Shown here piece after piece: positions 6,476 to 23,629 of a DNA stretch of 42,057 nt (position 1 is its first letter; each line of letters begins with the position of its first letter). The notes beneath the pieces were generated by a model. The model was given only the letters and a program-made list of their open reading frames with translations. It had not been told where the DNA came from and searched no databases. Source of the DNA: Bacteroidota bacterium (GTDB lineage: Bacteria > Bacteroidota > Ignavibacteria > Kryptoniales > JAKASW01); contig JAKAMG010000026.1 in assembly GCA_021812985.1 (NCBI GenBank), forward strand, positions 1 through 42,057, written 5' to 3'. The position numbers and the translations under genes are program-made.

Positions 6476-7810
6476 TTGGTCCGGCAACACCATCGGGCGA
6501 AGCCAACAGTGAAATTACAGAATCGGTATCATCCTGAGGAGCAAAGTCAGCTGGAAAAAACTGTCAAACGCAGCTTTCGTCTCGGACTTCTGGCGTTTGT
6601 CCTTTTTATAGTCGGTAATGTTCATGCGGGGCCCTGGGTTACCGCTTACGTGGGGGGCTGGTGGTTAGGTATTAACGACAACGGTCAGATGCCCATCTCC
6701 AGGATAGACTTTCGTGGCATGACCGTTTGCGATCATATGGCATTAATCCCGACTGTCCGTTCCCCCTTTATTGACACCGCCTTAACGGACAACTGGGTCA
6801 CGAACGGGATGTCAAGTCAGAATTCTCTCAAGCTTACACGGGCTGCGCATTTAGCCCGAGTGAAATGCATCTTCACAATCGGAGCCGGCAATACGAGGGA
6901 AGCTTTTCTTTCGGCAACTAACCCAGCCAACCTCAACGCTTTTGTGGCAACGCTTGTTGATTTCATGGAGCACCGTCACTACGACGGCGTCGATATTGAC
7001 TGGGAGCCCCTTCGCCGTACTGACGTGGACCAGTGGGAAGATCTGATTGTCGCTCTGAGAAAAATGCTTCCCTCTCCAAAATACTTGATTACGGTCACCG
7101 CCGGATGGGGATCGCCCACCGATGCTTACGAGTCCATACAGGGCTACGTTGACCAGATCAATATCATGACTTACGACTTCGACACAGACGCTTCTGGTTA
7201 CAATTCATGGTATTCCGGCTCCGTCTATTCCGCTGGGGTAGTCGCCCCTTTTGACAACAGGACACCTGTTCCATCTTGTGACTATATGGTCGGTCAATTT
7301 GAGAAAGCCGGAATCGCGGCTTCAAAGCTTGGGATCGGATGCGAACCGGGAGGTGATTTGTGGATAGGAATAAACGGACCCGATCAATCAATAGCCTCCG
7401 TAACATCTTGGAAGCCAGACATTTCATACAACGACATTGTTCGCAACTATTTCCAGCCTCAGATATATCACTGGGACGACAAGGCTGAAGCCGCATGCCT
7501 CGGCTGCAAACCTCATGATGGTAAAGGGGACTGGTTCCTTTCATTTGACGATACGAATGCTTTGAAGGCCAAGTTGGAATATGTCAGGGAAGCAGGCATC
7601 GGCGGGCTTATAATTTATGAAATAGGCATGAGTTACGATAAGGCGTCGGGGCGAAATCCCTTTCTTGACGTCAGCAGGGACTACCTGCGGCGAGACTCTT
7701 CCCCGAAAGGGAAATCGATCCGAAAGATTCACAAACAAATTAAGCGCAGGGTATTCAATATCACTCACCAATATTCTGAAGAACAAACGTTCACAAGGAG
7801 AGAGGAATGA
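6476..7810 (+). CDS. Secreted GH18-type glycoside hydrolase, no T9SS tail
   Basis: Glycoside hydrolase of the chitinase-like GH18 family. The TIM-barrel hallmark DxxDxDxE is intact as DGVDIDWE (residues 170-177, catalytic Glu177); 'YVDQINIMTYDFD' near 224 and 'GIGGLIIYEIGMSYD' near 378 are the later strands. A signal peptide (about residues 30-51, 'FRLGLLAFVLFIVGNVHA') predicts export. The mature part is closely related to the next gene. The end differs: a basic tail with several Lys/Arg replaces the sorting domain, so it may stay periplasmic. ATG 6476 gives an over-long n-region and lacks a ribosome site; GAGGAG at 6536-6541 sits nine bases before an in-frame CTG at 6551, which would give a normal signal peptide. 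Substrate could be chitin-like or the cluster's own polymer. Confidence 0.85.
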   Translation: MVRQHHRAKPTVKLQNRYHPEEQSQLEKTVKRSFRLGLLAFVLFIVGNVHAGPWVTAYVGGWWLGINDNGQMPISRIDFRGMTVCDHMALIPTVRSPFIDTALTDNWVTNGMSSQNSLKLTRAAHLARVKCIFTIGAGNTREAFLSATNPANLNAFVATLVDFMEHRHYDGVDIDWEPLRRTDVDQWEDLIVALRKMLPSPKYLITVTAGWGSPTDAYESIQGYVDQINIMTYDFDTDASGYNSWYSGSVYSAGVVAPFDNRTPVPSCDYMVGQFEKAGIAASKLGIGCEPGGDLWIGINGPDQSIASVTSWKPDISYNDIVRNYFQPQIYHWDDKAEAACLGCKPHDGKGDWFLSFDDTNALKAKLEYVREAGIGGLIIYEIGMSYDKASGRNPFLDVSRDYLRRDSSPKGKSIRKIHKQIKRRVFNITHQYSEEQTFTRREE

Positions 7811-9267
7811 AAAATAAATATTGTAACCGTTTTCTATCTGTTCAGGTGTTGCTGCTTGTCCTGATACCGCTCTTTACGGCCCCCCGGCCAACGGAAGCGA
7901 GCGGAAAGCCGTGGATAACTGCCTACGTCGGAGGCTGGTGGTTCGGATCTGATAATAACGGGTTTCTCCCGATCGACAGTATAAATTTCAAAGGGATGAC
8001 CGTCATCGATCACATGGCCGTATTGCCTTTGACAAAGGCCCCATTCATCGACACCGCACTTGTAAATAACTGGGTGACAAACAGCATGTTCCTGAGCAAC
8101 TCGCTGAAGTTGACAGCGGCGGCTCACGCGGCTGGAGTCAAGTGCACATTCACGATCGGAGCATGGGGTACCCAAAGCAAATTTCTTTTTGCCACGACCC
8201 CTTCGAACCTTCCGGTCTTCGTCGGCAACCTGGTTAGTTTTCTAAAGAATCGCGGCTACGACGGAATAGATATAGATTGGGAGCCTTTATCCGCCACTGA
8301 CACTACACAGTACAAGAACTTCATCATAGCGCTGAGGGATTCACTCCCTTCGCCCTACATAATATCGGTCACATGCGGCTGGGGATCACCCTACGGTGTA
8401 TTCGCGTCCATCCAGAACTACGTCGACCAGATCAACATAATGACGTACGACTTTGACACCGACGCTCCCGGATACAATTCGTGGTATGCCGCCGCCGTCT
8501 ATTCGGCCGGAGTGGTCGATCCGTATGATAACAAGACCCCTGTCGTCTCGTGCGACTACTTGGTGAATCTGTATGAACAGGCCGGCGTAAAACCATCCAA
8601 GCTCGGTATTGGTTGTGAACCTGGTGGCTGTCTGTGGACAGGAATATCAGGCGCGAACCAGTCCATCTCCACCGTTACCTCCTTCACGCCTGACGTTTCA
8701 TACAACACCATAATGAAGGATTACTACCAACCGAACCTGTACCACTGGGATAGTGGGGCCAAAGCTTCTTATTTGAGCTACGACACAACTGACACGGCAA
8801 GCGACTGGTTCCTTTCCTACGACGACACTACGGCAATGAAGGCCAAGCTTTCGTATATCGATTCAGCCGGCATCGGCGGAATGATCTTCTACGAGATCGG
8901 GATGAGCTATGATGATACAACCGGCGCGAACCCGTACCTCGATGTGACTCAAAGATACCTTGAAGGTGTTTCGGCTGTGAAGGAGAGCTCGGAAAGAATT
9001 CCTCTAACTCCTTTTCTTTCGCAAAACTATCCTAATCCGTTTAACCCGACGACCAGGATAGACTACTCGATCTCTAAGAGAGGATACGTGTCACTGGCAG
9101 TGTACAACGTCTTAGGACAGAAGATCGCCACGCTGTTTTCCGGTGTAGAGGTTCCCGGCGATTACACAGCTACTTTTGACGGAAGCCGATTCGCAAGTGG
9201 CGTGTATTTTTACAGGCTCCAGGCTGGTTCGTCCGTACTTACCAGAAAACTTGTTCTCGTCAAATAA
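7807..9267 (+). CDS. Secreted GH18-type glycoside hydrolase with T9SS C-terminal sorting domain
   Basis: Tandem paralogue of the preceding gene, joined by an ATGA stop-start overlap. Residues 1-31 are a signal peptide ('LLLVLIPLFTAPRPTEAS'). The barrel runs about 34-390, with catalytic DGIDIDWE at 152-159 (Glu159), 'YVDQINIMTYDFD' and 'GIGGMIFYEIGMSYD'. Residues about 400-486 form a T9SS sorting domain: 'NYPNPFNPTT', 'VYNVLGQKIATL', 'FDGSRFASGVYFYRL', ending 'LVLVK'. The protein is therefore expected to cross the outer membrane and be released or anchored at the surface. A glycosidase in an EPS locus may trim or release the polymer; nothing in the sequence fixes the substrate. Confidence 0.92.
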   Translation: MKNKYCNRFLSVQVLLLVLIPLFTAPRPTEASGKPWITAYVGGWWFGSDNNGFLPIDSINFKGMTVIDHMAVLPLTKAPFIDTALVNNWVTNSMFLSNSLKLTAAAHAAGVKCTFTIGAWGTQSKFLFATTPSNLPVFVGNLVSFLKNRGYDGIDIDWEPLSATDTTQYKNFIIALRDSLPSPYIISVTCGWGSPYGVFASIQNYVDQINIMTYDFDTDAPGYNSWYAAAVYSAGVVDPYDNKTPVVSCDYLVNLYEQAGVKPSKLGIGCEPGGCLWTGISGANQSISTVTSFTPDVSYNTIMKDYYQPNLYHWDSGAKASYLSYDTTDTASDWFLSYDDTTAMKAKLSYIDSAGIGGMIFYEIGMSYDDTTGANPYLDVTQRYLEGVSAVKESSERIPLTPFLSQNYPNPFNPTTRIDYSISKRGYVSLAVYNVLGQKIATLFSGVEVPGDYTATFDGSRFASGVYFYRLQAGSSVLTRKLVLVK

Positions 9268-9445: not shown

Positions 9446-10738
9446 ATGATGTCTGAAGCGATAGTAGAGAAACAGGAGGGGGCGGTCTCCGTCGAAGTTG
9501 TCGATAGCGATGCCGCGTTCGATAATCTCGAGGACGTGTGGAATGACCTCGTCGAGACGGCTGATTGCACAATTTATCAGACCTTCGAGTGGCAACGAAC
9601 ATGGTGGAAGTATTTCGGCAAATCCAGGAAGCTTAACGTACTGGTGATGCGGGAAGGGAGCACCCTGGTTGGTATTGTTCCGATGTTCATTGAACGAAAG
9701 AGTGTCATGGGGATTGCAGTCCTCGCTGTCCTGCAATTTTTAGGTTCAGAGGAATCCGATTATAACGATGTGATTTCTCTGCCGGGGTATCGAGAAATTG
9801 TCATCAATGCGCTCGTCAACTACCTTTCGCGGCCGGACCGGCAATGGGACTGTTTCGAGATCAGAGACGTTAGCGAGCGATTTGAAACTATCACTTTGTT
9901 GCCGGCCCGTCTCGCTGCTGCAGGATTCAAGGTACACACTTATAAGGGCAATGTCTGCCCTCAAGTCAGCCTGCCAAAAACATGGTCTCAATTTTTGGAG
10001 CATCTTGGAGGGAATCTAAGATATCAACTCAAGAAGAAGACCGAGCGGTTGAATAAGTCTCATCAAGTTGTGACTGAAATTGTCACGAGCGGAGACGCAG
10101 AGGTGAAAGAGGCCGTAGGGCGTTTCGCGGCCATCCACGGACAAAGATGGGAAAGCCTCGGCTATCTCAACGCCTTCAAAGACCCTCATTTCCTTGCCTT
10201 TCATGTGGAAGCAGCTCAGAAATTCGCACGGAGGGGGTGGCTCAGAATGCTTTTCTTGAACGTCGACGGGGTTCGTGTGGCTGTGAACTTCGATTTCAAT
10301 TTCCGCGGCAGGATTTACTTCTATCACGGGAATGCGTATGCCTCGGATGAAATCATGAAGTTCAGCCCGGGATTCCTTCTCAGGTGCGCCGCAATCGAGC
10401 AGGGAATTGCGGAAGGGATTGAGGTTTACGATATGCTCCGAGGGAACGAGACTTACAAGGCGAACGACTTCAAGTGCATGCCGATTGGTAACTGGCAAAT
10501 CCGCGCAGTGCCCCAAGACTTTCCGGCGAGAGTCCTCTTCTCGGCGTTCTTGTTCCAGGAATTACTCGGCAAAATTCCCAAGCGGATCAGGCGGGAATTC
10601 CAAGACTATAGAAGGTTCTCGAAAACTAAGGATCCGTCCCCCGCCCTTGTCCTTGAGTATGGATGGGAAAGACTTAAAGACGTCTCCAAGCTTGGCAGGT
10701 ACTATGTTGACAGGTTCTTCGGCAGGTCAACCAACTAG
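9446..10738 (+). CDS. GNAT acyltransferase, BioF2/CelD type (paralogue 1 of 4)
   Basis: 430-residue cytoplasmic protein of the GNAT superfamily group annotated as 'BioF2-like/CelD acetyltransferase' or FemAB-like, often found in cellulose and EPS clusters. Signature segments: 'DCTIYQTFEWQ' (40-50), 'LVGIVPMF' near 75, 'GGNLRYQLKKKTERL' near 190, 'RMLFLNVDGVRVAVNFDF' near 268, 'YHGNAYASDEIMKFSPGFLL' near 295 (the acyl-donor loop region) and 'YDMLRGNETYK' near 328. Likely transfers an acyl or aminoacyl group to a sugar of the repeat unit; donor and acceptor unknown. ATG 9446 is followed directly by a second ATG. Its nearest relative is the next gene, 27 bases downstream, so the pair arose by tandem duplication. 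Confidence 0.87.
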   Translation: MMSEAIVEKQEGAVSVEVVDSDAAFDNLEDVWNDLVETADCTIYQTFEWQRTWWKYFGKSRKLNVLVMREGSTLVGIVPMFIERKSVMGIAVLAVLQFLGSEESDYNDVISLPGYREIVINALVNYLSRPDRQWDCFEIRDVSERFETITLLPARLAAAGFKVHTYKGNVCPQVSLPKTWSQFLEHLGGNLRYQLKKKTERLNKSHQVVTEIVTSGDAEVKEAVGRFAAIHGQRWESLGYLNAFKDPHFLAFHVEAAQKFARRGWLRMLFLNVDGVRVAVNFDFNFRGRIYFYHGNAYASDEIMKFSPGFLLRCAAIEQGIAEGIEVYDMLRGNETYKANDFKCMPIGNWQIRAVPQDFPARVLFSAFLFQELLGKIPKRIRREFQDYRRFSKTKDPSPALVLEYGWERLKDVSKLGRYYVDRFFGRSTN

Positions 10739-10765: not shown

Positions 10766-12091
10766 ATGACCCCACAGACATCGGACAGACAAGCGAGACC
10801 AATGGCCGAAACGGTTAATCCCCCCAACACCCATACGGCAAATGCGCAAGCTCCAACCGTCACAGTTGTCCGCTCCATCGCGGAGCTGAGTAATTTTGAA
10901 GGATCATGGGACAGCCTGTCCAGTCTTGCCGATTGCACGATCTTCCAGACTTATGACTGGAATGTCGCCAGGTGGAAATATTTTGGAGGAGGGACATGTC
11001 TCTATTGCCTGATCGTGAAAAGGGGAGAAGCGGTAGTAGGGATAGCGCCGCTACAGATTGAAAATTCCACGCTTCTGGGCGTGAGGGTGGCAAGTGTTGT
11101 TAAGTTCATTTTCGGGGATTACATAAACCTCATAGCTGCGCCTGAGGACTTCGAAGTTGTCCTGGCGGCAGTCCTGGATCATCTAATAAATAATGCCCCG
11201 GCTTGGGATATATTCGAGGTAAATGAAATCAACGAAAGATATCCTCTATTGAAACTCCTCCCGGAGTACCTTAGGGAAAGAGGGATGAAGCATTCTCTCT
11301 ACAGAGGGAATATCTTCTCAAGGGTCCAGCTTCCGGCCTCATGGGAGGAGTTTCTTCAGCAATCAGGAGGTAAATTCAGGCACGAACTCAAGCGGAAGAC
11401 CGACCGGATGAGCGAGAAATTCAATGTGGATGTCGAGCTAATTACGGACGGTGATAAGGAGGTTAGGGAGGCGGTTGAGTCATTTGCTGAAATTCACGGC
11501 AAAAGATGGAGAAGTCTCGGGTATAAAAGCCAGTTCGATAACCAGACGTTTCGCGACTTCCACGTCGAAGTCTCTCAAAGGCTTGCGAGGAAGGGGAGTC
11601 TCCGGATGTTGTTTTATAGAGTCAACGGCGAACGCGCAGCCGCAAGCTATAACTTCATCATGGGTACTACACTCTATGCCTATCACGCAAATGCCTTTGC
11701 CTCCGATGAGGTCATGAAATATAGTCCTGGTTTTTTGCTCCACTGTTCTGCGATACGGAGAGCGATCGACGAAGGCGCGCTTGTTTACGACATGCTGAGA
11801 GGAAATGAATCCTACAAGTATGTCGATTTCAATTGCGCTTCGAGCTTCAACTGGCAGGTTAGAGGGATTTCTCCGAGCCGGGCCGCCGACATCAGATATC
11901 GACTTTTCACCATCATCGAGTTCTTCTCAAAAGTATCAAGCAGGCTGAGTGCGGAGTTTCATTCGTTTAAAAGATTCTACGTGACTCGACATCCGTCTCC
12001 AATGACGGCGGTGAAACGTGTACTTTCGCAGATGAAAGGCATGGTGGGCTTGGCTGGATATTTTGTGAAACGGTCCGAAGGGAATTCCTGA
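10766..12091 (+). CDS. GNAT acyltransferase, BioF2/CelD type (paralogue 2 of 4)
   Basis: 441 residues, co-oriented with and similar along its whole length to the preceding gene. 'DCTIFQTYDW' near 56, 'GGKFRHELKRKTDRM' near 202, 'RMLFYRVNGERAAASYNF' near 279, 'YHANAFASDEVMKYSPGFLLHC' near 305 and 'YDMLRGNESYK' near 340. The first 30 residues are Thr/Pro/Asn-rich and poorly conserved; ATG 10802 (Met13) is a possible alternative start. Role as for paralogue 1: acyl modification of a cell-surface glycan is the family-based expectation, not shown by the sequence. Confidence 0.87.
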   Translation: MTPQTSDRQARPMAETVNPPNTHTANAQAPTVTVVRSIAELSNFEGSWDSLSSLADCTIFQTYDWNVARWKYFGGGTCLYCLIVKRGEAVVGIAPLQIENSTLLGVRVASVVKFIFGDYINLIAAPEDFEVVLAAVLDHLINNAPAWDIFEVNEINERYPLLKLLPEYLRERGMKHSLYRGNIFSRVQLPASWEEFLQQSGGKFRHELKRKTDRMSEKFNVDVELITDGDKEVREAVESFAEIHGKRWRSLGYKSQFDNQTFRDFHVEVSQRLARKGSLRMLFYRVNGERAAASYNFIMGTTLYAYHANAFASDEVMKYSPGFLLHCSAIRRAIDEGALVYDMLRGNESYKYVDFNCASSFNWQVRGISPSRAADIRYRLFTIIEFFSKVSSRLSAEFHSFKRFYVTRHPSPMTAVKRVLSQMKGMVGLAGYFVKRSEGNS

Positions 12092-12184: not shown

Positions 12185-13600
12185 TCAGGAATGAGTGATG
12201 TTCTGACCGGCAATCCTTAGAATTGCTTTCACGCGAGTACTCATGAATCGGAGCAAAACGGGGAAGGAGGGGCGCTTCGTAATCACGAATCTCCTCACTT
12301 CGTGATATTCGAGCAGGAAGCGTGATAGTGTCCTTCCAAGCGTCTCATCGATGCGTGCCGCGCCTGATTTCAGGGAAGAGAAAGTGGACGGAGAAACTGC
12401 TCTGACTGACCAGGTTGGAACCGGGACCCCCTTGAACTCCTTCATCTTGTAATCTTCTTCCCCGTAAAGCATGTCGTACGTGTGCAGTCCTTCATCGATT
12501 GCCTGTTTTATGGCGGCGCAGTGGAGTATGAAACCGGGGCTTAGTTTCATCATTTCCTCTGTTCCATTTGCATTCCCCTCATAAAAATACAGCCGACCAT
12601 TGAACGCGAAGCTGAAGTTTGTCGCGATTCTATTCCCGCCGACTTTAAGGAACATGATGCGCAGCCATCCCTTGTTGGCAAACTTGGCGGCGATATCTTT
12701 GAGGAAATCAGTTTCCTCTTCCTCCTTGTATCTTGTCGTGTAGCCCAGGCTGTGCCAGCGTCCGGTATTGATTGAAACGAAATCATCCACCGCTTGTGCT
12801 ATGCCCTGGCCGGGATCAAGCAGTAGCTCAAACTCCATCCCGAAAATGTCATTTAATCTCTGACGCTTCCTTTTGAGCTGGGACTTTTTGTTCCCACCGA
12901 GGAGGTACAGAAATCCATCCCACGAGGTCGGTAGAGCGAGCTGAGGGCATGACTGCTCCCGTCGTGTCTCAATCTTGACATGCAGACTATCCAACCGATT
13001 ACGGAGAGAACTTAACCAGCGTGAGCGATCTTCGATTTGAATAATCTTGAGCAGGTCCCATTCACTGTGTTGAGACGACAAATATTCAGCGAGCGCTTGT
13101 GCTACGGTCTCTTCGTCTTCGCGATTGCTTATTATGCCGCCGTACCCAGCGTCTATGAATCGGAATGTGCGCATAGGAATAATTCCGAAAACTCTGGATG
13201 TCTCAATAAACGCCGGCGCGATTCCGACCACTCTGCCAGCCTGACTGAATACTAGGATATGCAAATCCTTATCGCCGCCAAAGTGGCTCCACCATGTCTT
13301 TTGCCATTCGTAAGTCTGAAATACTGAACAGTCTGAGTTGCCAATTAATTGATCCCAGACCGTCTCAAGGCTATCGAACTCAGATGCTGATATTACAATT
13401 GAAACTGAAAGTGCGAAGTCGTCGGGGCCCGCTCCTTGAGACGTGCGAGAGTCGTCACGGGAAGGGGAAAGCGGCCGAGTCTCTTCAGAGAGGGTTGGCC
13501 GGTCGCCTGGAGATTCAGTTCCATTCATTTCGCGATGGTACCGCTCGTGAGCCAGCTTCGGGAAAGAAAGGTGAAACGACTGCTCAGCGGTCGACCGCAT
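12185..13600 (-). CDS. GNAT acyltransferase, BioF2/CelD type (paralogue 3 of 4)
   Basis: Last gene of the long - strand EPS operon. Motifs match the family: 'DCSVFQTYEWQKTWW', 'GGNKKSQLKRKRQRL', 'RIMFLKVGGNRIATNFSFAF', 'YEGNANGTEEMMKLSPGFILHC' and 'YDMLYGEEDYK'. The frame is open to ATG 13648, but that start would run 65 bases into the GT2 gene upstream. I chose ATG 13600 (GGGG five bases upstream, 17-base overlap with the GT2 stop), giving about 471 residues. ATG 13528 gives an N-terminus nearer in length to paralogues 1 and 2 and is also possible. The leader between these starts is Ser/Arg/Asp-rich and probably disordered. Confidence 0.85.
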   Translation of the reverse strand: MRSTAEQSFHLSFPKLAHERYHREMNGTESPGDRPTLSEETRPLSPSRDDSRTSQGAGPDDFALSVSIVISASEFDSLETVWDQLIGNSDCSVFQTYEWQKTWWSHFGGDKDLHILVFSQAGRVVGIAPAFIETSRVFGIIPMRTFRFIDAGYGGIISNREDEETVAQALAEYLSSQHSEWDLLKIIQIEDRSRWLSSLRNRLDSLHVKIETRREQSCPQLALPTSWDGFLYLLGGNKKSQLKRKRQRLNDIFGMEFELLLDPGQGIAQAVDDFVSINTGRWHSLGYTTRYKEEEETDFLKDIAAKFANKGWLRIMFLKVGGNRIATNFSFAFNGRLYFYEGNANGTEEMMKLSPGFILHCAAIKQAIDEGLHTYDMLYGEEDYKMKEFKGVPVPTWSVRAVSPSTFSSLKSGAARIDETLGRTLSRFLLEYHEVRRFVITKRPSFPVLLRFMSTRVKAILRIAGQNITHS

Positions 13601-14816
13601 TCGTGCCCCGGTTTTCCCGCGCAGTGCGGACCCATGTCCGGTCATCACCTTTCAACATAGTCTTGAGATATATTGCCAATTTCCAGACTGCGAATCGTGG
13701 AAAATTAAGGAGTGCAAGATAGGCTCCGGGGTCAGCATCAGAGACTTTAAGCCCTGCAATAACATGGAATATTTCCAGTAAGAGAGCAGAGCTCCATACC
13801 AGGAGAATGACTCTTATCCCGGGAGGGTTCAGGCCCAACAAAATCAAGAGATTTGCAGCGAGGCCGAGGACAGTCACGAGAACGAGGTTCACGAAAGCGG
13901 GGGTAACTAACTCCATGAACATATCGGCTATCATGACGGATCTTTGCTTTATGGCCTCGGCGACAAGTCTGCCTGTGTACTTCCTTATGAGGGGGAATCG
14001 TCCCATCTCCCAGCGTTTCCTCTGCGTCTCGGCGTTGTGCGGGTCGCTGGGCATAATCGCCCTGACGACCGCTTCCGGCGCAAACTGAATTTTAATTCCT
14101 TCCAGTGCCAGTTGGAGCGAATGTTCGAGATCTTCGACTCTTGAATACGAACTCCAGGGAGAAGTGGCAATTAACTTTCGAGAGAAACACATACCATTCC
14201 CGTTTAGGCCTGAGCTGCATCCTATCACCATCTTCCCGAGAGGCCGCACATAATTGTGAAGTATGAATGCCACCCTGGTCATCTCAGGGCTCCAGCGGCC
14301 GGGCTGGGGCTGAACCATGTCGCTGCTCTGTATGCAGTCCGCACCATCACGTAGATATGCGCCCATTACGGTGAGGAAATTGCCTGATACGACAGTATCA
14401 GCATCAACGATACAAAAAGCATCGTATGCCTTTTCCGATCTCATAAGCTGATCCAGACACCACCTAAGAGCCTGTCCCTTTCCAATATTCACGTTGTCAA
14501 ATCGCTCGAGCACGTTCACTCCGGTACGTCTTGCCACTGCGGCAGTGTTATCCGTGCAGTTGTCGGCAATCACGTAGACGTCGAACAGATTCCTGGGATA
14601 GTTGATCTCCTCAAGGCTGCTGAGTGTCTGGTCTATTACTAATTCTTCGTTATGTGCAGGTACGAGTATGGCAAAGCGAGCATCCTTCTCGGATTGCACG
14701 TCGAATCGCCTCAACTTCTTGAACATCGCGAGGAAGGTCAATAAGGCGAGGTAGAACGAAAATATTAAAACCGGCAAGAGACCGAGCATATCCAGCGTTA
14801 CGATAATCATCTTCAC
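13584..14816 (-). CDS. Membrane-anchored processive-type GT2 glycosyltransferase
   Basis: 410 residues. A transmembrane helix at about 7-31 is followed by the GT-A domain: 'VPAHNEE' (52-58), 'ADNCTDNT' (84-91), 'DAD' (138-140), 'RVEDLEH' near 223 and 'QRKRW' near 265. The last three, with D,D,D,QxxRW-like spacing, are typical of cellulose/hyaluronan-synthase-type enzymes and of DltP/IcaA-like transferases. At least two further helices follow at about 310-365. It may therefore both add sugars and pass the chain across the membrane, or act on a lipid-linked sugar. Start GTG 14816, with ATG 14810 as alternative; 25 bases after the preceding operon gene. It overlaps the next GNAT start. Confidence 0.9.
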   Translation of the reverse strand: MKMIIVTLDMLGLLPVLIFSFYLALLTFLAMFKKLRRFDVQSEKDARFAILVPAHNEELVIDQTLSSLEEINYPRNLFDVYVIADNCTDNTAAVARRTGVNVLERFDNVNIGKGQALRWCLDQLMRSEKAYDAFCIVDADTVVSGNFLTVMGAYLRDGADCIQSSDMVQPQPGRWSPEMTRVAFILHNYVRPLGKMVIGCSSGLNGNGMCFSRKLIATSPWSSYSRVEDLEHSLQLALEGIKIQFAPEAVVRAIMPSDPHNAETQRKRWEMGRFPLIRKYTGRLVAEAIKQRSVMIADMFMELVTPAFVNLVLVTVLGLAANLLILLGLNPPGIRVILLVWSSALLLEIFHVIAGLKVSDADPGAYLALLNFPRFAVWKLAIYLKTMLKGDDRTWVRTARENRGTNAVDR

Positions 14817-14841: not shown

Positions 14842-15744
14842 TCAGGACTTGATGTGAACGTCTTTCGCGATGTTTAATGGGACATAGCCGAAAGGCTCCC
14901 GTCCATGGCTGTTCCATGGTCTTGGTCTTGGAATTGTGAAATCGCGGATCAGCCAGGCCATCATGGATGGACGTGAAAGAAAGAAATGCCAATTGTAGGG
15001 CATATACGGACTTCTGTAAGCGATATAGATGAGATATGGGCATTTGTATTTCCTCGAGAGGTCGAACCCATTCAAGGGAAGCGAGAAGAATTGGGCCAAC
15101 TCGAAGCGAGCATCGGACTCCGCGAGGATTTCGAGGGCTTTGTCTGCGAGCGGGTAGTCATGTGTGCCGATGCTGACGTCTGCCCCCCTTTTGGCCAGTT
15201 TCGACACGATAGTGAGGAAGTTAGCCCTGGGATCGATTTTTGGGGAAGTCGGATCATGCCACTGTCCTTTGACGACGCGGGCGTGTATCCGGAGCTCTGC
15301 AGCCCGCTCGGCGTCAGATGCGCTCCGTAACCAGCGAGATGGGAGAGTGCATCCGATGTTTCTGTAAGTCGCCGACGCCTTCTCGATAAGTGCGTGCGTC
15401 TTTGCGGCAGACTCATGTTCGAGCGAGTCAATTTGTAGCTTTACCTTTTTCGAGCGGGCGATACCGAGGAGCTCTTCGAACAGTCCGTAGTCGTATCCTA
15501 ATGCGCTTAACTTTATTGCGACGTGACTCCCAAGGTGATTGGGTTGCACTGCGCTTATCGCGTCTGAGTATAGCTGCAATACCTGCCGAGGAGAATCCAG
15601 TGAACCTATCCATGGCGAAATGACTGTGCCCACGTCTCTGGTTTCCGCCCAGTCACGGATGAGGAGCGCGTCTTTGAGATCAGGGCCGGCAACATGTCTG
15701 GAGGATATGACTGCCACTGCCTTATTCTTAAATTTGTCAAGCAT
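14842..15744 (-). CDS. Proline-dehydrogenase-like (PRODH-fold) protein in EPS operon
   Basis: 300 residues with the PRODH TIM-barrel motif order of monofunctional bacterial enzymes: 'HVAG..LKDAL' near 17-26, 'VAIKLSALG' (Lys79), 'LQID' (Asp106), 'GCTLPSRWLR' near 131, 'RVVKGQW' (156-162), 'GTHD' (193-196) and 'YMPYNWHFFLSRP' (247-259). PRODH oxidises proline to pyrroline-5-carboxylate with FAD. The flavin-contact residues look kept, but the Arg-Arg pair that holds the proline carboxylate is replaced by Phe-Phe here, so the substrate may differ. ATG 15744 has AGGAG six bases upstream and overlaps the preceding stop (ATGCTTGA), so the gene is translationally coupled to the GNAT gene. ATG 15774 is less likely. 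No membrane segment. Confidence 0.8.
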   Translation of the reverse strand: MLDKFKNKAVAVISSRHVAGPDLKDALLIRDWAETRDVGTVISPWIGSLDSPRQVLQLYSDAISAVQPNHLGSHVAIKLSALGYDYGLFEELLGIARSKKVKLQIDSLEHESAAKTHALIEKASATYRNIGCTLPSRWLRSASDAERAAELRIHARVVKGQWHDPTSPKIDPRANFLTIVSKLAKRGADVSIGTHDYPLADKALEILAESDARFELAQFFSLPLNGFDLSRKYKCPYLIYIAYRSPYMPYNWHFFLSRPSMMAWLIRDFTIPRPRPWNSHGREPFGYVPLNIAKDVHIKS

Positions 15745-17173
15745 CGATGTCTCCTGCGTTCTCCCTGCCATCAATCGCCACCAACTCCTTGGCGGGGATT
15801 TCTGGATGGCTCTCTCCCGTTAATGCGTGAGAGACAAGGGCTCTTCTGTCAGAAATCCGTTTTCTTAAATGTGAAAAGTAATGTGGGAGGGCGAGTGCAT
15901 AGCCGTCCCTACCGGCAATTGTAAAGAATATTGTGGATTCACATCTGATCCGTGAAAGTGCCGACCTTGCTCCCGATTTGAACCGGTAAACTGATCGCAA
16001 TATGTTTGCATTATCCGACCTTGCGCCGAATATCCTAACCCGGTAGTTCTTTGCGGCCCCGTTTGCCAGATCAAACTTGTACTCTTCTGCACCTCTCAGC
16101 AGATCGAAGACGCGGTATCCTTCCTCAATCATCCTTTGAATTGCCGTGATGAGGAGCGCCACCCCTGAGCCGGAGTAACCAGATGAGCCGTCATGTTCCT
16201 TGCGGGTGTCTGTTCCGCTTAAGTAGTCATAAACCCGGTCCTTAAATGTGAACACGAGCCGGGCTGAGACAGGCCTGTCGCCATCCTTGAGGACGAATAT
16301 CCTGAGTCGTCCCTTGGCGGCAATTGATTGTGCCAGATCGAACTGCATAGATTCGAATCGTTTGTCAGAGAAAAGCCCGGGATAACCTAACGCATTCCAT
16401 CGTTGCTGATGAAGAGCGGCCAGGGTTTGAACGGCTGATATAATCTCTGAACCGCCTGTTACTTCAATTAATTGAAAATTACGGCTCTCGATATATGTCT
16501 TCCTCGCTCGACGGAGACTCCGTCGTGTCCTCTGGTTGAGTGTCGCGAAAAAGTCATCAGCGGTTGGGGGAAGTGCGATGTTGGGACACACGTCGCTGTC
16601 ACTCGTTGAGATAGGTACTCCGCCGTCCCGCATCTGCGGAACTACCTTATTCAAGAGAATGCTCCCCTCCGGAATATTCTGGAGGTCAATCTCATCCCAC
16701 AATTGCGTCGTCTTCATCAGATACGCGGCTAAAACCGAGCTCACGCTGTGTTCGTATCCGGGAAGGGCAATCACATCAAGGTAGTCAGATGGCCCAACGC
16801 GGTCCATCGAAAGAACCGGTGACCTGGCGGAGGTTATTCCGGATCCGATGAGTCTAAGATGAACGTCGATCGTCATGCCGAAAATCGAGTGCGTTTCCAT
16901 GAAGAAGGGCGCGATCCCAACGAACTTACTGCCATCTTTGAAGAGGATTATGTGTGGTCTGTGCATTGTCGTTGAGCTGAAGTGAGTCCACCACAGATAT
17001 TGCCAGTCAAAGGTTTGAAATACCGTGCACGAGGAACGCGCTGTTAAGTCCTCCCACTTGTCGGCGAGGGAGCGGAATGATTCGCCATCCTCAACGATTT
17101 CAATCGTCAGGCTTTGATGGCTGAACCTTGCCGGCCAGGTATTTGGCTGTTGTTGGTCCATCCCTTTCAACAT
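15737..17173 (-). CDS. GNAT acyltransferase, BioF2/CelD type (divergent paralogue 4 of 4)
   Basis: About 478 residues from ATG 17173, which has AGGAG three bases upstream and gives the same N-terminal length as the paralogues; the open frame extends to 17350 but would enter the preceding gene. Motifs: 'SCTVFQTFDWQYLWW', 'LNQRTRRSLRRARK', 'RIFVLKDGDRPVSARLVFTF', and 'FDLLRGAEEYKF'. The region equivalent to the acyl-donor loop differs from the other three ('HDGSSGYSGSGVALL'), so it may use another donor. Directly coupled by an 8-base overlap to the proline-dehydrogenase-like gene, which suggests the two products act on one process. Confidence 0.84.
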   Translation of the reverse strand: MLKGMDQQQPNTWPARFSHQSLTIEIVEDGESFRSLADKWEDLTARSSCTVFQTFDWQYLWWTHFSSTTMHRPHIILFKDGSKFVGIAPFFMETHSIFGMTIDVHLRLIGSGITSARSPVLSMDRVGPSDYLDVIALPGYEHSVSSVLAAYLMKTTQLWDEIDLQNIPEGSILLNKVVPQMRDGGVPISTSDSDVCPNIALPPTADDFFATLNQRTRRSLRRARKTYIESRNFQLIEVTGGSEIISAVQTLAALHQQRWNALGYPGLFSDKRFESMQFDLAQSIAAKGRLRIFVLKDGDRPVSARLVFTFKDRVYDYLSGTDTRKEHDGSSGYSGSGVALLITAIQRMIEEGYRVFDLLRGAEEYKFDLANGAAKNYRVRIFGARSDNANILRSVYRFKSGARSALSRIRCESTIFFTIAGRDGYALALPHYFSHLRKRISDRRALVSHALTGESHPEIPAKELVAIDGRENAGDIDA

Positions 17174-17298
17174 GGGCTCCTGCGCGGGTTTTCGGGCCAG
17201 CAGCATCGTGCCGTACCGGAAGCACCCGGCAAAGTTGGCATGTCCTCGTTCAAAGTACTGGGAAAGCATGATGAGTGTGTCACTCTGTGGCGTGAGTA

Positions 17299-19347
17299 TC
17301 AATTTGAAAAGGACAGGAATGAGCGCTGACGGGCTTTCCACCTGATCCATGCATAGTACTCGTAAGGAGCCAGGACCTTGAGGGCAAAATCTGCAAGGTT
17401 GGTCGACCTTGTAATCGGGATGCGCCTTACGTTGAAGAAATCATCACCGAACCTGGGAGGACCCGAGTAGACTCCGCATCCGTATTGATAGCCTGCTGCC
17501 CTGACGAGCGTCTTCAATCGCTTCGAAGTTATGCCGAAAGGGTACGCGAAGACGTCGACCGGATTTCCAATGAGATCTTCCAGTATTTGCTTGGAACCCA
17601 ATACTTCGTCCCATGCCTGGTCTTCAGGGAGGTCGTTTAAATGCGGATGGGTAAGAGAATGCGAGCCGATTTCGAAACCCATTTTGTGCAGCTGTACAAT
17701 GCTATTTGTTGTCAGGAGGGGTACCCCCTTCGAAACGAAATCCGCATCCCACAAATTCGACCGCATACCCGAATCTCCAAGCACGAACATTGTGGCTTTC
17801 GCCCCAAATTCTTTTAAGACGGGCACTGCATTGGCCAAAATCTCATCATACCCATCGTCGAACGTGAGTATCACAGGCTTGCTTGGAAGAGCAATTTCCC
17901 CTTTCAGAGAGAGGGAATAATCGTGAAAGCTGATACAGGTGTAACCCCACCTGTCCAGGAATTCGAGCTGTTGACGCAATTGCGTACGAGTTATGACCCA
18001 GTCGTATCCGTTCTTGCCGTCCTGGTTGGCAACGACTCTGTGGTACATGAGGACCTTAACGCCACGCTGAGAACCGTTTGGACGCTCTTCCCGGTCATGG
18101 TGTCTGCTGTTAGTGTTCATTCCTTCCTGCTTGTCGATTCTTTTTATGTGATCACGTTTGTCGATTGTTGAAGTGATTGCGATGTCCAGGTGGTGCGCGA
18201 CCGCCTCCCAATCGTATTTGTCCTTGACCAGCCTGTAGCCTGACTCGCCAAGCCGTGTCGCGCGCTCCGGGTCGCGGAAAAGTTTAATTACTTTTGCAGC
18301 GAACGTCGCGGGATCATCCGCAATGTCGACATTGATACCGTCCTCGACGTCAAGGCCTTCACAGCCTATTGACGTCGTCACTATGGCTTTTTTCATCGAA
18401 AGTCCCTCGAGTATCTTTAGTCTTGTGCCACTGCCCATCCGCAGTGGGACCACATACACTGCAGCCTTGCGTGCATAAGGTCGCACGTCAGAAACTGTTC
18501 CGGTAACAACGATGTCTTCCGAGTTCTTTTCCATTAGCGAGGCCGGTGGATTCTTACCGACAACGTACAGTTTGGCCGCGGGCTCCGACTTCTTAATCAG
18601 CGGGAAAATCTTCTCAGTGAAATAGATTATGGCGTCCTGGTTCGGGAAATAATCCATTGTACCGGTGAAAACCATTGAAAAAGGCTCGACTTCCTCGTCT
18701 GAGGGACTGAAATATTCTGTCTCTACTCCGTTCGGAATCACGAACTTATCTTTTGAGGGCAGGGCAGAGTCGAGAATTGTCTTATCATTTACAGAAGTCG
18801 TTAGGATTGCATCCACTTCGCGGCAAATATCCAATTCCTCCCTAAGCAGCTTCCTGGATTCTCTGAAGAAGATGGCCTTTCTGAAAGGATTCACGGCTGT
18901 CCTGTGCATTCTCTCGAGGTTGCTGAATTCCACGTTATGCTCGTCGAGAATCCTGATCACTCCCTTCGGGAGGCGGAATTGGCCGACAGATGGAAATTCC
19001 ATGAGCGCGACGTCGAAGTCCTCGGTCTCGCAGAGGCGATCCAGGGTGGACTGCATATCCGTGGCGGAAGCAGTCTGGAAGAGGAAACTCCTGCGGTTCA
19101 AGAGCGCGCCAAGAACTATGTTCCACCGTCTTGACATGAAGGAACGTGAATGCGGTCGAACCACGTTGATGCTCCTCACGCTATCGCCGAAGTGCAGATC
19201 CAACAGTTCCTTCTCCGGTCGGCCTCCCACCGTTACAAATGTAACCTCGTGCCTGCGTGACAGGCCTTTGAGTATGTGGTAAATGCGTATTGCGCCGCCG
19301 AAATTTGGTGGTGCCGGAGAGTACGGAGCAATGTGCAATATCTTCAT
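17299..19347 (-). CDS. Fusion: GT4 glycosyltransferase + polysaccharide deacetylase (NodB domain)
   Basis: 682 residues with two enzymes in one frame. Residues 1-390 are a GT-B family 4 transferase: 'HIAPYSPAPPNFGGAIRIYHI', 'LDEHNVEF' near 134, 'IPNGVETEYF' near 204, 'VFTGTMDYFPN' near 225, 'VVPLRMGSGTRLKILEGLSM' near 298. A Lys/Arg/Asp-rich linker (about 390-428) follows. Residues 429-650 are a NodB-type deacetylase: TFDDGYDE (495-502, metal-binding Asp498), H563-S-L-T-H567-P (metal His pair) and YPFG (602-605). Family knowledge says such deacetylases remove N- or O-acetyl groups from sugars; the fusion suggests a sugar is added and deacetylated in the cytoplasm, or that the domain acts on lipid-linked units. 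Overlaps Wzx by ATGA (19347/19344). Confidence 0.93.
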   Translation of the reverse strand: MKILHIAPYSPAPPNFGGAIRIYHILKGLSRRHEVTFVTVGGRPEKELLDLHFGDSVRSINVVRPHSRSFMSRRWNIVLGALLNRRSFLFQTASATDMQSTLDRLCETEDFDVALMEFPSVGQFRLPKGVIRILDEHNVEFSNLERMHRTAVNPFRKAIFFRESRKLLREELDICREVDAILTTSVNDKTILDSALPSKDKFVIPNGVETEYFSPSDEEVEPFSMVFTGTMDYFPNQDAIIYFTEKIFPLIKKSEPAAKLYVVGKNPPASLMEKNSEDIVVTGTVSDVRPYARKAAVYVVPLRMGSGTRLKILEGLSMKKAIVTTSIGCEGLDVEDGINVDIADDPATFAAKVIKLFRDPERATRLGESGYRLVKDKYDWEAVAHHLDIAITSTIDKRDHIKRIDKQEGMNTNSRHHDREERPNGSQRGVKVLMYHRVVANQDGKNGYDWVITRTQLRQQLEFLDRWGYTCISFHDYSLSLKGEIALPSKPVILTFDDGYDEILANAVPVLKEFGAKATMFVLGDSGMRSNLWDADFVSKGVPLLTTNSIVQLHKMGFEIGSHSLTHPHLNDLPEDQAWDEVLGSKQILEDLIGNPVDVFAYPFGITSKRLKTLVRAAGYQYGCGVYSGPPRFGDDFFNVRRIPITRSTNLADFALKVLAPYEYYAWIRWKARQRSFLSFSN
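18118..18128 (-). promoter_or_regulatory. Possible internal ribosome site and ATG inside the fusion gene
   Basis: Reading the - strand, AGGAAGGA (18128-18121) directly precedes an in-frame ATG (18120-18118, Met410) at the start of the interdomain linker. Use of this start would give a free 273-residue deacetylase as well as the full fusion. The spacing (four bases from the first AGGA) is short but within range. Confidence 0.35.
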
Positions 19348-20843
19348 TGGCTTATCCCGGTTCGTTTGAAGGGCACTAACCGCAACTTTGTCAAGGTCGC
19401 CGCCTTTCCCATTAGTTCTAACTCGCGGTCGTCAAATGTCCTTAAGAGGAAGAGAGAAACCGCGTATGTGAGGAGACCGATGCCGCTTGTGGCAGGCCAG
19501 GGGATGCCGAGCCTGTATCCAAATGTGATCGCCAAGGCCATAAGGCCTCCTGATACTAAAGCTTTGGCGGCGACCCGAAGGAACGCCGCGCTGAATAATT
19601 CCCGTGGGAGGAGGTACACTGCGGACAGCAATACCGCAAGTTCCGTGATGTCGGTGGCGACAGCAGCACCTATCCCTCCGTTATTGAACCTTGTCTGGAA
19701 ATATCTTATCAAAAGCAGGTTGAGTACAATATTAAGGGCCATGGCGAAGAATCCCACGAATGCCCACTGCTTCTGCCTGTCAATCGCCTGCACCGCGTTG
19801 CCGAGGGCAAAATCCATGTAAACGAGTACTGTCCCCACTGAGAAGAGCTGAAGTATGACAACGCTCGGCCCAAACTGATTAAGTCCCAACAAGAGAGCAA
19901 CTACCGGCTTGGAAAAATAAATGAAACCGACGGCGATGGGTATGCTTGCAAGCAAAAGGAACTTCAGACTTCGCTGGGTGGCACTAATCATCGCGCCTCC
20001 CGCCGTCTGACTCAACTTTGATATAATCGGATATAAGGCCTGTCCGAGGATTGAGGGAATAAACATAACGATGTCGAAGAATCTGTATGCAGCTCCGTAC
20101 CAGCCGACAACCGCGTCAGGAACCATCAGAGACAAGAGGACAGCATCTATTCTGAAATAAATGATTCCAAAAATGGCCCATAGGAAATACGGCAAACCTT
20201 CCTTCAGCGACTTTACCACGGTCTTCAGATGGGCTGAAAATGTCAGATGGAACATCTCCCGTGCGTGTCTGGCGGACACCATGAAGCTTACCAGGCCGCT
20301 CGCCGCTATCAGTAGTATGACGGTAAGTTCCTTTGCACCCATGAAGAGTGCGGGGATGACGGACAGCGCCAAGAAGCCTCTCTCCGCGACCGCACCTATG
20401 GAAGGATACTTCACATCTTCGAAGCCGAGGTAGCAGTAACGCATCAACAGCGTCAATTCTACCCACAGATTCGAAACCGCGAGAATCATGATGAGGAGCA
20501 GCTCCGTCAGCGGGTAGTGGGCGGAAATGCCCGTCGCCGCCGCAATGAAAAGGGATGCAACCCACAGGATAAGCCGAAGCGAGATGGCTTCGCTCATCGT
20601 CTCAGACGCTCGTGTCCGGTCCCTCGAAATGTGCTTGGTGATTAGCGAATTCCCACCGAAGTCTATGATGCTTCCAAGAATCATTTGAAATGAGATGGCC
20701 AGATAAACACGTCCGTATGCATCGCTTCCGAGGAACCGCGGCACAAATATGAACACTGCAAGCCCACAAACCCAGGTAATCATCTGAGCCGCCATCATGG
20801 TGATGCCGTTTCTGAAAAGGGATCTTGCGTTTGAGGAGGGCAT
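19344..20843 (-). CDS. Wzx-type polysaccharide flippase (MOP superfamily)
   Basis: Inner-membrane transporter expected to flip undecaprenyl-diphosphate-linked repeat units to the periplasm. From ATG 20843 it is 499 residues with about 12-14 hydrophobic segments. The opening 'RNGITMMAAQMITWVCGLAVFIFVPRFLG' and 'YGRVYLAISFQMILGSIIDFGGNSLITKHISR' are typical Wzx/RfbX features. The open frame reaches 20978, but that start would overlap the Wzy gene by 44 bases and has no ribosome site; ATG 20843 has GAGGT ten bases upstream. Stop overlaps the fusion gene start by four bases. Confidence 0.92.
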   Translation of the reverse strand: MPSSNARSLFRNGITMMAAQMITWVCGLAVFIFVPRFLGSDAYGRVYLAISFQMILGSIIDFGGNSLITKHISRDRTRASETMSEAISLRLILWVASLFIAAATGISAHYPLTELLLIMILAVSNLWVELTLLMRYCYLGFEDVKYPSIGAVAERGFLALSVIPALFMGAKELTVILLIAASGLVSFMVSARHAREMFHLTFSAHLKTVVKSLKEGLPYFLWAIFGIIYFRIDAVLLSLMVPDAVVGWYGAAYRFFDIVMFIPSILGQALYPIISKLSQTAGGAMISATQRSLKFLLLASIPIAVGFIYFSKPVVALLLGLNQFGPSVVILQLFSVGTVLVYMDFALGNAVQAIDRQKQWAFVGFFAMALNIVLNLLLIRYFQTRFNNGGIGAAVATDITELAVLLSAVYLLPRELFSAAFLRVAAKALVSGGLMALAITFGYRLGIPWPATSGIGLLTYAVSLFLLRTFDDRELELMGKAATLTKLRLVPFKRTGISQ

Positions 20844-20934
20844 CGTGTTCTTTACCTCTGTCCTGTACGGCTCGGCATGCAAAATCGCCCGGCGATGGGT
20901 AAGGTCTGATGACTCTTGGTCAGTCTTAGCCGGT

Positions 20935-22524
20935 TCATACGTTGGCGGTCTCAGGGGTGAGATTGGGTTGACCGGCATGGAGGCCGGTTGAATCGCTTGG
21001 CGCGGAGGTCTCCTTTGAAAGTCGAGTGATCGTCGGAAGCAATGCGCTGAATGTTCCCATGAAGACCATGTCCCTGTACCATGTCAATTGCATGTCGAAG
21101 TAGGAGACTACCATTTGATTCACTATCATCGCACCTATCATCAGCGTAACGGCTTTCAGGAAAGGATCCCTGACGAGGCCTGCAACTTTGCCTGATTCAA
21201 ACATCAAAGCGTTGATGAAGAGAAAGAAAATGAAGAATCCAACGGCACCCATGTTGACCATGAGCCAGAAAATCTGGTCGTGGGGGATCCAATCCTGAAG
21301 TGAAATCCCGAGGTTCACAAGGAAAGCGGGGCGCATATATTTCTGCCCGAAACCTGTTCCGATGACCGGGTGATTTCTGACCGTGACTGCCAGGTCGTAC
21401 CTTTCGAATTCCCTGTACAGGTTCGAGTCAAATCTCTCGCCGGCTCCAGAAGCATCTTTTGAAAAGCCGGACTTAACAAGTTGGATCGGTTCTGAAATTC
21501 TTCCGTTGTAGTTCCAGAAAATGGCAGTGTATGCTCCGAGGAAGAGAAAGATCGGGAGCGCCGCTCTGAAGAATTTCTTCCTCTCAACTCGATTTAGCAT
21601 GACGATAAACGTGCCCAAAGCAATGAAGAATCCGGCGTAGCACGCCCTGCGCTGGCCTGAGTAGAAGCCCATCAAAAGAACGGGAAGGAGCCAGAAGATC
21701 ACGCGTCGCTGACCTGTCTTGGCATCAAAGAGTGAATATCCTATGAGGAGAATGAAAAGATCTGCCATGAACATCGGATCTTCATGGTTGGTGAGAACGG
21801 TATAGTCGTCAAACTTGAATCCGAGACGGATGAATCGTATGTCGCCCTGCAAAGCCTTGACTGTTATCATGGCGATAAAGATCCATAGGATTACACTGAT
21901 CTGTTCCTTTGTCTGGATCACTTGTGGCACGAGGAAATAGAGAAGCAGGAAGTACATCAAGGCCCGAATTTCCCACAGCGAGACAAGGAAGTCTCCGCCC
22001 CCGTGAAGACCATACAGCTCCGATGCCATGAGCTCGAGAAAGAGAAGGATGGCAAACCCCCAATATGGTGCGCCCTGTACCTGTCTTCTTGTCCTCGAGC
22101 TTACGGATATGAACCATGCGAGAAGTATGAGAGCCATCTGTATCTCAAGCGGATTCATGACGCCTGCGGAAAACGACGGGATAAATGGATTCATGTTGAG
22201 GTTGTCAAAGTACGCTACTTTCTCAGTGAACGGAATCCCAAACGGCATCGGGTTTAAGAATTGGTCAAAGAGCATGACCATCGCGAAGAACATGTAGAAG
22301 CCCCATTCGACCTTGTAGAAGGTCGTGAAGACAACAGCGACCGCGACAACAAACGCCATTGCGGCCTCTACGTTGCCGTTCGTCCAAACGACGATTAGGG
22401 CGACGGCCAAGGAGACAGCAAGTGCGATCGAATACCCTATAGTGAGGTTAGCATCGAATACGTCAGATATGCTGGAATAAAATCCTGAAAGGCGAAGAAC
22501 GGCTCCCTTATACCAGGCGAACAA
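20935..22524 (-). CDS. O-antigen ligase/polymerase (Wzy-like) membrane protein
   Basis: 529 residues, at least ten hydrophobic segments, and a large external loop at about 345-420. The segment 'HPVIGTGFGQKYM' then 'DWIPHDQIFWLMVNMGAVGFFIF' is the conserved Wzy_C (O-antigen ligase/polymerase) region, with the loop Arg and His residues used by the family. In this operon, between Wzx and the Wzz/CpsD pair, polymerase is the better guess than WaaL ligase. Start TTG 22524 has AAGGAGG five bases upstream, the clearest ribosome site in the operon. The C-terminal 30 residues are Ser/Pro/Thr-rich and cytoplasmic. Confidence 0.9.
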   Translation of the reverse strand: MFAWYKGAVLRLSGFYSSISDVFDANLTIGYSIALAVSLAVALIVVWTNGNVEAAMAFVVAVAVVFTTFYKVEWGFYMFFAMVMLFDQFLNPMPFGIPFTEKVAYFDNLNMNPFIPSFSAGVMNPLEIQMALILLAWFISVSSRTRRQVQGAPYWGFAILLFLELMASELYGLHGGGDFLVSLWEIRALMYFLLLYFLVPQVIQTKEQISVILWIFIAMITVKALQGDIRFIRLGFKFDDYTVLTNHEDPMFMADLFILLIGYSLFDAKTGQRRVIFWLLPVLLMGFYSGQRRACYAGFFIALGTFIVMLNRVERKKFFRAALPIFLFLGAYTAIFWNYNGRISEPIQLVKSGFSKDASGAGERFDSNLYREFERYDLAVTVRNHPVIGTGFGQKYMRPAFLVNLGISLQDWIPHDQIFWLMVNMGAVGFFIFFLFINALMFESGKVAGLVRDPFLKAVTLMIGAMIVNQMVVSYFDMQLTWYRDMVFMGTFSALLPTITRLSKETSAPSDSTGLHAGQPNLTPETANV

Positions 22525-22855: not shown

Positions 22856-23629
22856 TCAGAGGTCATTCTCTCTGACCTCATTCATGACGAATGCCTGCAC
22901 AGTTTCTTTCCGAACTTTTCTGAAGAGCCTCTCAATGTCTCTCCGTCTTGTCTTTCGCGATTTGACTACCACGATTAAGCCTGTAAGCTGATTTGCGATG
23001 AGAGTTGGAAAGTCTTTTTCGCCAACGGAAGGAAGGTCAAGAAGTATCAATTCAAATTCCTTGTAGAGGGACGCAATGACTCCCTGAAAAGACCAGGAGC
23101 GTCCCGGCTGAAGCGGACCAGCCTGACCCGCCGACATCACGTACAGATTATCAACTAGGGTCGGCGTGACCAGCAATTCACCCCCCGAAAGAGCCTCCGA
23201 GATACCTATGTCGTTAGTTGTCCCGAATACCTCGTGTAGTTTAGGCTTGCCGAAGTTCAGGTCGATTAACAACGTCTTCCTTCCCATTCCGAGAGCGAGG
23301 GCCGTCGCCAGATTGCAGACGGCGGTGGTCTTGCCCTCACCGCGATTCGGGCTCGTGATCCCAAGGCTTAGATTAACGAACCTGTCGTCAGGAGGGAGGA
23401 AGAGAGAGTAATTAAATGAGTTATATAGCCCGTAATTGACTACCTTCTCATCGACGATGTCGCCTCGCGTGCTGTTAATCTTTACCGGGCGAGTCGCGAT
23501 TGCGGTTCGTCTGAACTCGCTCTTTGCGATGGGCGAGAGCTTTCCGCCTTCCCTCTGAAGGCCCATGTCGTCTGACGCGCTCTGTTCAGGGCTCGACATA
23601 ATACCAAGTGTCTTTTGAATTAGTTCCAA
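22856..23629 (-). CDS. CpsD/Wzc-type P-loop ATPase, degenerate as a tyrosine kinase
   Basis: 257 residues. Walker A 'PNRGEGKTT' (94-102), Walker A-prime region 'LLIDLNFGKPKL' (120-131) and Walker B 'LILLDLP' (194-200) place it with the cytoplasmic halves of BY-kinases that work with Wzz/GumC proteins. The family's Walker A-prime is DxDxR; here it reads DLNFG, so the second Asp and the Arg are missing. No C-terminal Tyr cluster is present. I infer an ATPase that regulates chain assembly without autophosphorylation. Start TTG 23629 (or ATG 23599). 31 bases after the Wzz gene, consistent with a split Wzc. Confidence 0.88.
   Translation of the reverse strand: MELIQKTLGIMSSPEQSASDDMGLQREGGKLSPIAKSEFRRTAIATRPVKINSTRGDIVDEKVVNYGLYNSFNYSLFLPPDDRFVNLSLGITSPNRGEGKTTAVCNLATALALGMGRKTLLIDLNFGKPKLHEVFGTTNDIGISEALSGGELLVTPTLVDNLYVMSAGQAGPLQPGRSWSFQGVIASLYKEFELILLDLPSVGEKDFPTLIANQLTGLIVVVKSRKTRRRDIERLFRKVRKETVQAFVMNEVRENDL

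Follow-up and report, generated by a model that had tools for sequence, protein, structure and literature searches.

Proline dehydrogenases (PRODHs) work with a catalytic lysine and a hydrophobic tyrosine, and an Arg-Arg pair together with a tyrosine of helix 8 binds the proline carboxylate (PMC10651016, PMC6017737). In the PRODH domain of PutA, Asp370 and Leu513 also contact the substrate, and Arg431 and Glu559 contact FAD (PMC3718742). The described enzymes closest to the gene considered here are the monofunctional PRODHs of Thermus thermophilus (2g37/2ekg) and Deinococcus radiodurans (4h6q), and the PRODH domain of PutA from E. coli and others. The setting of the gene also bears comparison with XrtA/PEP-CTERM-type EPS loci (TIGR03087, FemAB TIGR03019). 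To our knowledge, no PRODH homolog has been described in loci of that type. Here we analyse the window, a stretch of 42,057 nucleotides from contig JAKAMG010000026.1, in which a PRODH-like gene lies among genes for EPS.

A PRODH-like gene in an EPS operon

The putative PRODH-like flavoenzyme gene occupies 14842..15744 on the minus strand, as judged from its ORF, predicted fold and family alignment. Its frame is intact and encodes 300 aa, running over 300 codons from an ATG at 15744 to a TGA at 14844-14842; the original prediction had recognised the ORF and left its strand unstated. The start overlaps the end of an upstream GNAT ORF (17350..15737) by 8 nt and follows a good ribosome site, a GGAG Shine-Dalgarno element with a 6-nt spacer to the ATG (15745..15754, minus strand; GCAGGAGACATCGATG). 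Both features had been reported before and are evident in the sequence, as are all four of the PRODH motifs listed then, IKLS (residues 77-80), LQID (103-106), RVVKG (156-160) and GTHD (193-196).

This gene is part of a Wzx/Wzy-type EPS operon, in agreement with the setting first proposed for it. The minus-strand gene order is Wzz, Wzc-like, Wzy, Wzx, GT4-deacetylase, GNAT, PRODH-like, GT2 and GNAT. A Wzz/Wzc-type chain-length protein (23661-25001) and a Wzc-like kinase (22856-23629) were assigned from sequence features read directly and from orthology in locus L036 rather than by a profile search. They are followed on the same strand by a Wzy-type polymerase (20935..22524), a Wzx-type flippase (19344..20978), a TIGR03087-like glycosyltransferase fused to a polysaccharide deacetylase (17299..19347) and an Acetyltransf_6 GNAT (15737..17350). 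Next after the PRODH-like gene come an EpsU-like GT2 glycosyltransferase (13584..14816) and the second GNAT of the minus-strand operon (12185..13648). The glycosyltransferase and GNAT neighbours resemble parts of XrtA/PEP-CTERM-type loci, all with scores below the curated cut-offs.

The EPS region of the window holds four Acetyltransf_6 GNAT genes (9446-10738, 10766-12091, 12185-13648 and 15737-17350). The first three share 34-42% mutual identity and by appearance are a local expansion, the 12185 protein being 40% and 34% identical to the 9446 and 10766 GNATs. Two tandem genes for GH18 chitinase-like proteins (6476-7810 and 7807-9267) overlap by 4 nt, and the second protein ends in what reads by eye as a type IX secretion-like sorting tail (YPNPFNPTT...). 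A conserved 313-aa EPS-region protein (3896-4837) has an ortholog in locus L038 and no Pfam match.

Predicted fold and active site

Structure prediction, which had been suggested as a check, places the window protein in the PRODH (beta/alpha)8 fold. The AlphaFold model, built from 61 relatives, has a pLDDT of 89.5 and superposes on Thermus PRODH 2ekg with a Z of 27.8 and 2.9 A over 254 residues; the likeness to the Deinococcus enzyme is similar (Z 26.4). Single-sequence searches reach PRODH weakly, and the window protein matches PDB 4h6q at E 1e-6 in such a search, whereas the family profile matches 2ekg at E 1.3e-30. Against NCBIfam ProDh_Thermus the window protein gives E 3.5e-9, far below the curated cut-off, with 36.2 bits where the equivalog model NF045947 requires 500. 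A Pfam search of the window copy returned no match; 45/61 relatives are matched at E <= 0.01.

The catalytic residues are retained. Window Lys78, Asp106, Tyr240 and Arg156 correspond to PutA Lys329, Asp370, Tyr540 and Arg431, and across 61 family members the conservation is 61/61 for K78 and R156, 59/61 for D106 and 58/61 for Y240. Lys78, Arg156, Lys159, Gly160 and His195 are invariant in the family and Asp106, Tyr240 and Tyr250 nearly so, with the conservation of KGQW partly enforced by the pattern used to scan for relatives. The carboxylate clamp is replaced. Thermus Arg288-Arg289 (PYLTRRIAERP) aligns to His253-Phe254 (PYNWHFFLSRP), whose codons, placed by translation and alignment, lie at 14985..14987 and 14982-14984 on the minus strand, and the Tyr-x-x-Arg-Arg of helix 8 reads Tyr250-Asn-Trp-His253-Phe254. 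The altered carboxylate site of the original prediction therefore holds, with one correction: three alignments give His-Phe in place of the Phe-Phe that was read there, the earlier count having fallen one residue late. Close orthologs carry Arg-Phe at this position. Among the 61 members the pair is intact in one and Arg-Lys in another, and in 34 both positions are non-basic.

The flavin side is also changed in part. PutA Glu559, an FAD contact, is represented by Ser257 in the window and is variable across the family, and the FAD-side Gln of strand 5 is not conserved, with Pro135 in the family. Because neither is kept, flavin binding could be altered. The loss of the clamp, together with a preserved catalytic core, suggests the same type of flavin chemistry acting on a substrate without a free carboxylate.

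The family has in common with the Thermus and Deinococcus enzymes the catalytic Lys, Asp and Tyr, the flavin Arg, and the RxVKG and THD motifs. It differs from them in identity (19-20%), in the replacement of Arg288-Arg289, and in carrying TLPGRW, KGQW and ELLxGLP where they have an LQSYLYR segment, KGAY and QFLYG. With the PRODH domain of PutA it shares the fold and catalytic core, but it lacks a P5CDH domain and equivalents of Arg555, Arg556 and Glu559. The window genome carries one other PRODH, which is canonical and keeps Arg-Arg.

A subfamily found in many phyla

Scanning one genome per species yielded 63 relatives, mostly on MAG contigs, from Ignavibacteriota, Bacteroidota, Calditrichota, Acidobacteriota, Gemmatimonadota, Armatimonadota, Planctomycetota, Myxococcota, Chloroflexota, Actinomycetota and Pseudomonadota. 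They are marked by KGQW, TLPxRW and QFF/ELL-GLP motifs. In the tree, six canonical PRODHs from the order of the window fall outside the family with a support of 100/100, and the window copy groups in a clade of 8 with L039-L044 and L054. The window gene belongs to an uncharacterised PRODH-fold subfamily distributed over many phyla. A search of viral contigs found no relative, and on plasmids the only matches were two haloarchaeal canonical PRODHs. PADLOC gave no match, and a role in anti-phage defence was set aside. In the literature, with most subscription journals outside the search, we found no paper that ties PRODH homologs to EPS or to a cognate GNAT.

A dedicated GNAT partner

Immediately upstream of the PRODH-like gene, and in the same orientation, 49/64 loci carry a GNAT gene, mostly less than 50 bases away. 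Most of these partners form one clade of ~365 residues, present in 51/64 loci by profile-based counts. The clade falls in Acetyltransf_6 (PF13480), which holds FemAB-like GNATs; unlike other GNATs of PF13480, it is tied to the PRODH-like gene. In four loci (L043, L040, L058 and L060) the cognate GNAT lies just downstream. Cultured carriers of a cognate pair include Altererythrobacter xiamenensis (L085) and Thiocystis minor (L079). In an Ignavibacteria locus and its copy (L051 and L149) the two domains are fused in a single 622-residue frame, and in two Myxococcota loci (L082 and L097) a more diverged Acetyltransf_6 domain is fused in frame with the PRODH-like domain. Distances within the two protein families mirror each other over 50 loci (r = 0.83, 0/2000 permutations, uncorrected for species history).

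The two genes also occur together across genomes. Among 395 genomes of the phylum, a sample free of the scan-pattern bias, PRODH-like proteins above 200 bits are found in the window genome, G054, G060, G100 and G218, and the cognate GNAT above 400 bits (E<=1e-100) in exactly the latter four. Within the genus, the cognate GNAT is confined to G002-G005, the other carriers of the PRODH-like gene. The 1.5 kb flanks of 44 loci with canonical-scoring PRODH contain no GNAT of the cognate kind (0/44). Unlike Thermus/Deinococcus-type PRODH, the family has a GNAT as its genetic partner and not P5C dehydrogenase. Comparative genomics thus reveals a GNAT/PRODH-like module, and members of the subfamily probably act, in the normal state, together with a dedicated GNAT of ~365 aa as a two-enzyme unit. 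The original prediction had coupled the window gene to an acyltransferase; across the family this tie is far stronger than could be known from the window, but the overlapping GNAT on which it was based belongs to another family. That protein (15737..17350) is conserved in the EPS operon and is non-cognate: it scores 57 bits with the cognate profile, where true members score 250-525, which rules it out as the family partner.

Other genes recur near the pair. A ~960-aa protein lies beside it in 17/64 loci (L056:10823-13711; also L033, L034, L035, L053 and L070). Its domains are phosphoribosyltransferase-like (Pfam 1.8e-7 in L070) and, at the C terminus, HAD phosphatase, and the part in between resembles a kinase by eye; the window genome lacks this protein. 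In some Bacteroidota and Ignavibacteria, ATP-grasp genes lie directly upstream of the PRODH-like gene (L058:7329-9973, L060:7280-9970 and L051:825-2785), one of which matches CPSase_L_D2 and, weakly, ATPgrasp_Ter.

Recurrence beside EPS genes, another check proposed at the outset, is seen in part of the family. The other carrier genomes of the genus have one PRODH-like copy in the same EPS operon (4/4), and in the genus and related Ignavibacteriota the GNAT/PRODH-like pair lies within the EPS operon. At least two kinds of glycan gene occur in the fetched flanks of 20/64 loci, a lower bound from loci that also supplied the seeds. In most phyla the pair is found outside recognisable EPS clusters among mixed neighbours, which speaks against a general role in polysaccharide modification and rules out EPS as a universal context. 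The EPS association is real in the lineage of the window and is not general, and the new step in polysaccharide modification that was first suggested is at present a guess.

The window copy has lost its partner

A search of the window genome (98.95% complete) with the cognate GNAT profile found no member, adjacent to the PRODH-like gene or elsewhere. Its best GNAT reaches 74 bits to this profile, whereas those of the other carriers in the genus reach 475-505; the second GNAT of the operon (12185..13648) scores only 74-100 bits. In orthologous loci the cognate GNAT lies between the EPS GNAT and the PRODH-like gene (L039, L041) or between the PRODH-like gene and the GT2 gene (L043). In the window the genes at these joints overlap by 8 bases and are spaced by 25 bases, respectively, and since the window is continuous where the orthologs carry the GNAT, the absence is not an assembly gap.

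The protein itself has diverged. It is altered at 21/93 positions fixed in five orthologs, against 0-5 for any other in a leave-one-out comparison that favours close pairs, and its end branch (0.68) is the longest of its clade, the others being 0.13-0.49. The nearest ortholog is 45% identical, too distant for dN/dS. Other GNAT-less copies (L042, L044 and L054) occur in genomes of the group, among which G002 and G003 also hold a paired copy. L054 (G003) and L044 (G002) are second PRODH-like paralogs that lie outside the EPS operon and have lost the catalytic Asp (GS for DS).

As the cognate GNAT is gone from the genome, the window gene is best read as an orphaned member of the subfamily, the most diverged among its close kin, which is either drifting or re-purposed with another GNAT of the operon.

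Discussion

We tentatively propose, with confidence a little short of even, that the subfamily and its partner form a widespread and undescribed PRODH-fold/GNAT module for a new modification, flavin redox of a masked-carboxylate N-group that the GNAT installs or caps, serving EPS in some lineages and used elsewhere in the rest. In the reading that we favour and judge more likely than not, the PRODH-like enzyme would bind FAD and, like PRODH, shuttle a hydride between flavin N5 and a C-N bond, here in a substrate with an absent or masked carboxylate. Candidates include sugars, lipids or small molecules that bear an aminoacyl or prolyl-type group, and other cyclic or secondary amines; the GNAT would either make the acylated substrate or consume the product. 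The unit would have been built into an EPS operon in the Bacteroidota/Ignavibacteriota lineage. In the window genome, where the cognate GNAT is gone, the copy would be left to drift or to a new use alongside another GNAT of the operon.

A substantial alternative, though one we think somewhat doubtful, is that the window copy no longer has its original function and evolves under relaxed selection, its frame persisting while the protein decays after loss of the cognate GNAT. The missing partner, the 21 changed positions and long end branch, and the failure of Pfam to detect this copy any longer all fit such decay, as do changes at near-invariant sites (Glu217 to Ala, Arg238 to Leu, Gly244 to Arg and Ala193 to Gly). 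However, the 300-codon frame is intact, with a good ribosome site and a tight operon position, and K78, D106, R156, K159, G160, T194, H195 and Y240 are all kept.

For the family as a whole, the missing Arg-Arg pair, Glu559 and FAD-side Gln (replaced by Pro135), together with constant pairing and fusion with the GNAT, could also describe a PRODH-fold protein that is now flavin-free and serves the GNAT in a structural or regulatory capacity. We regard this as unlikely, given that at least ten phyla retain the flavin-site residues Arg156, Lys159, Gly160, Thr194 and His195 along with the catalytic Lys78, Asp106 and Tyr240. Far less probable still is an ordinary catabolic proline dehydrogenase situated by chance in an EPS operon. 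The PRODH fold and the catalytic Lys, Asp and Tyr are what such an enzyme would have, but the Arg-Arg pair is lost, identity to canonical PRODH is ~20-25%, a canonical PRODH is encoded separately in the genome, and the family is paired with a GNAT rather than with P5C dehydrogenase. Lost clamp, separate canonical enzyme and partner gene together lead us to reject ordinary proline catabolism.

The GNAT/PRODH-like module is better supported than the claim about the window gene that led to it. PRODH is treated as a family with one reaction, and the only NCBI model under which these relatives are named is that for the Thermus proline dehydrogenase. A clade spanning many phyla that has dropped the proline clamp, apparently retains the chemistry and is accompanied by one GNAT may represent an activity hidden by the annotation 'proline dehydrogenase', and its gene pairs, natural fusions included, provide a short list for assay.
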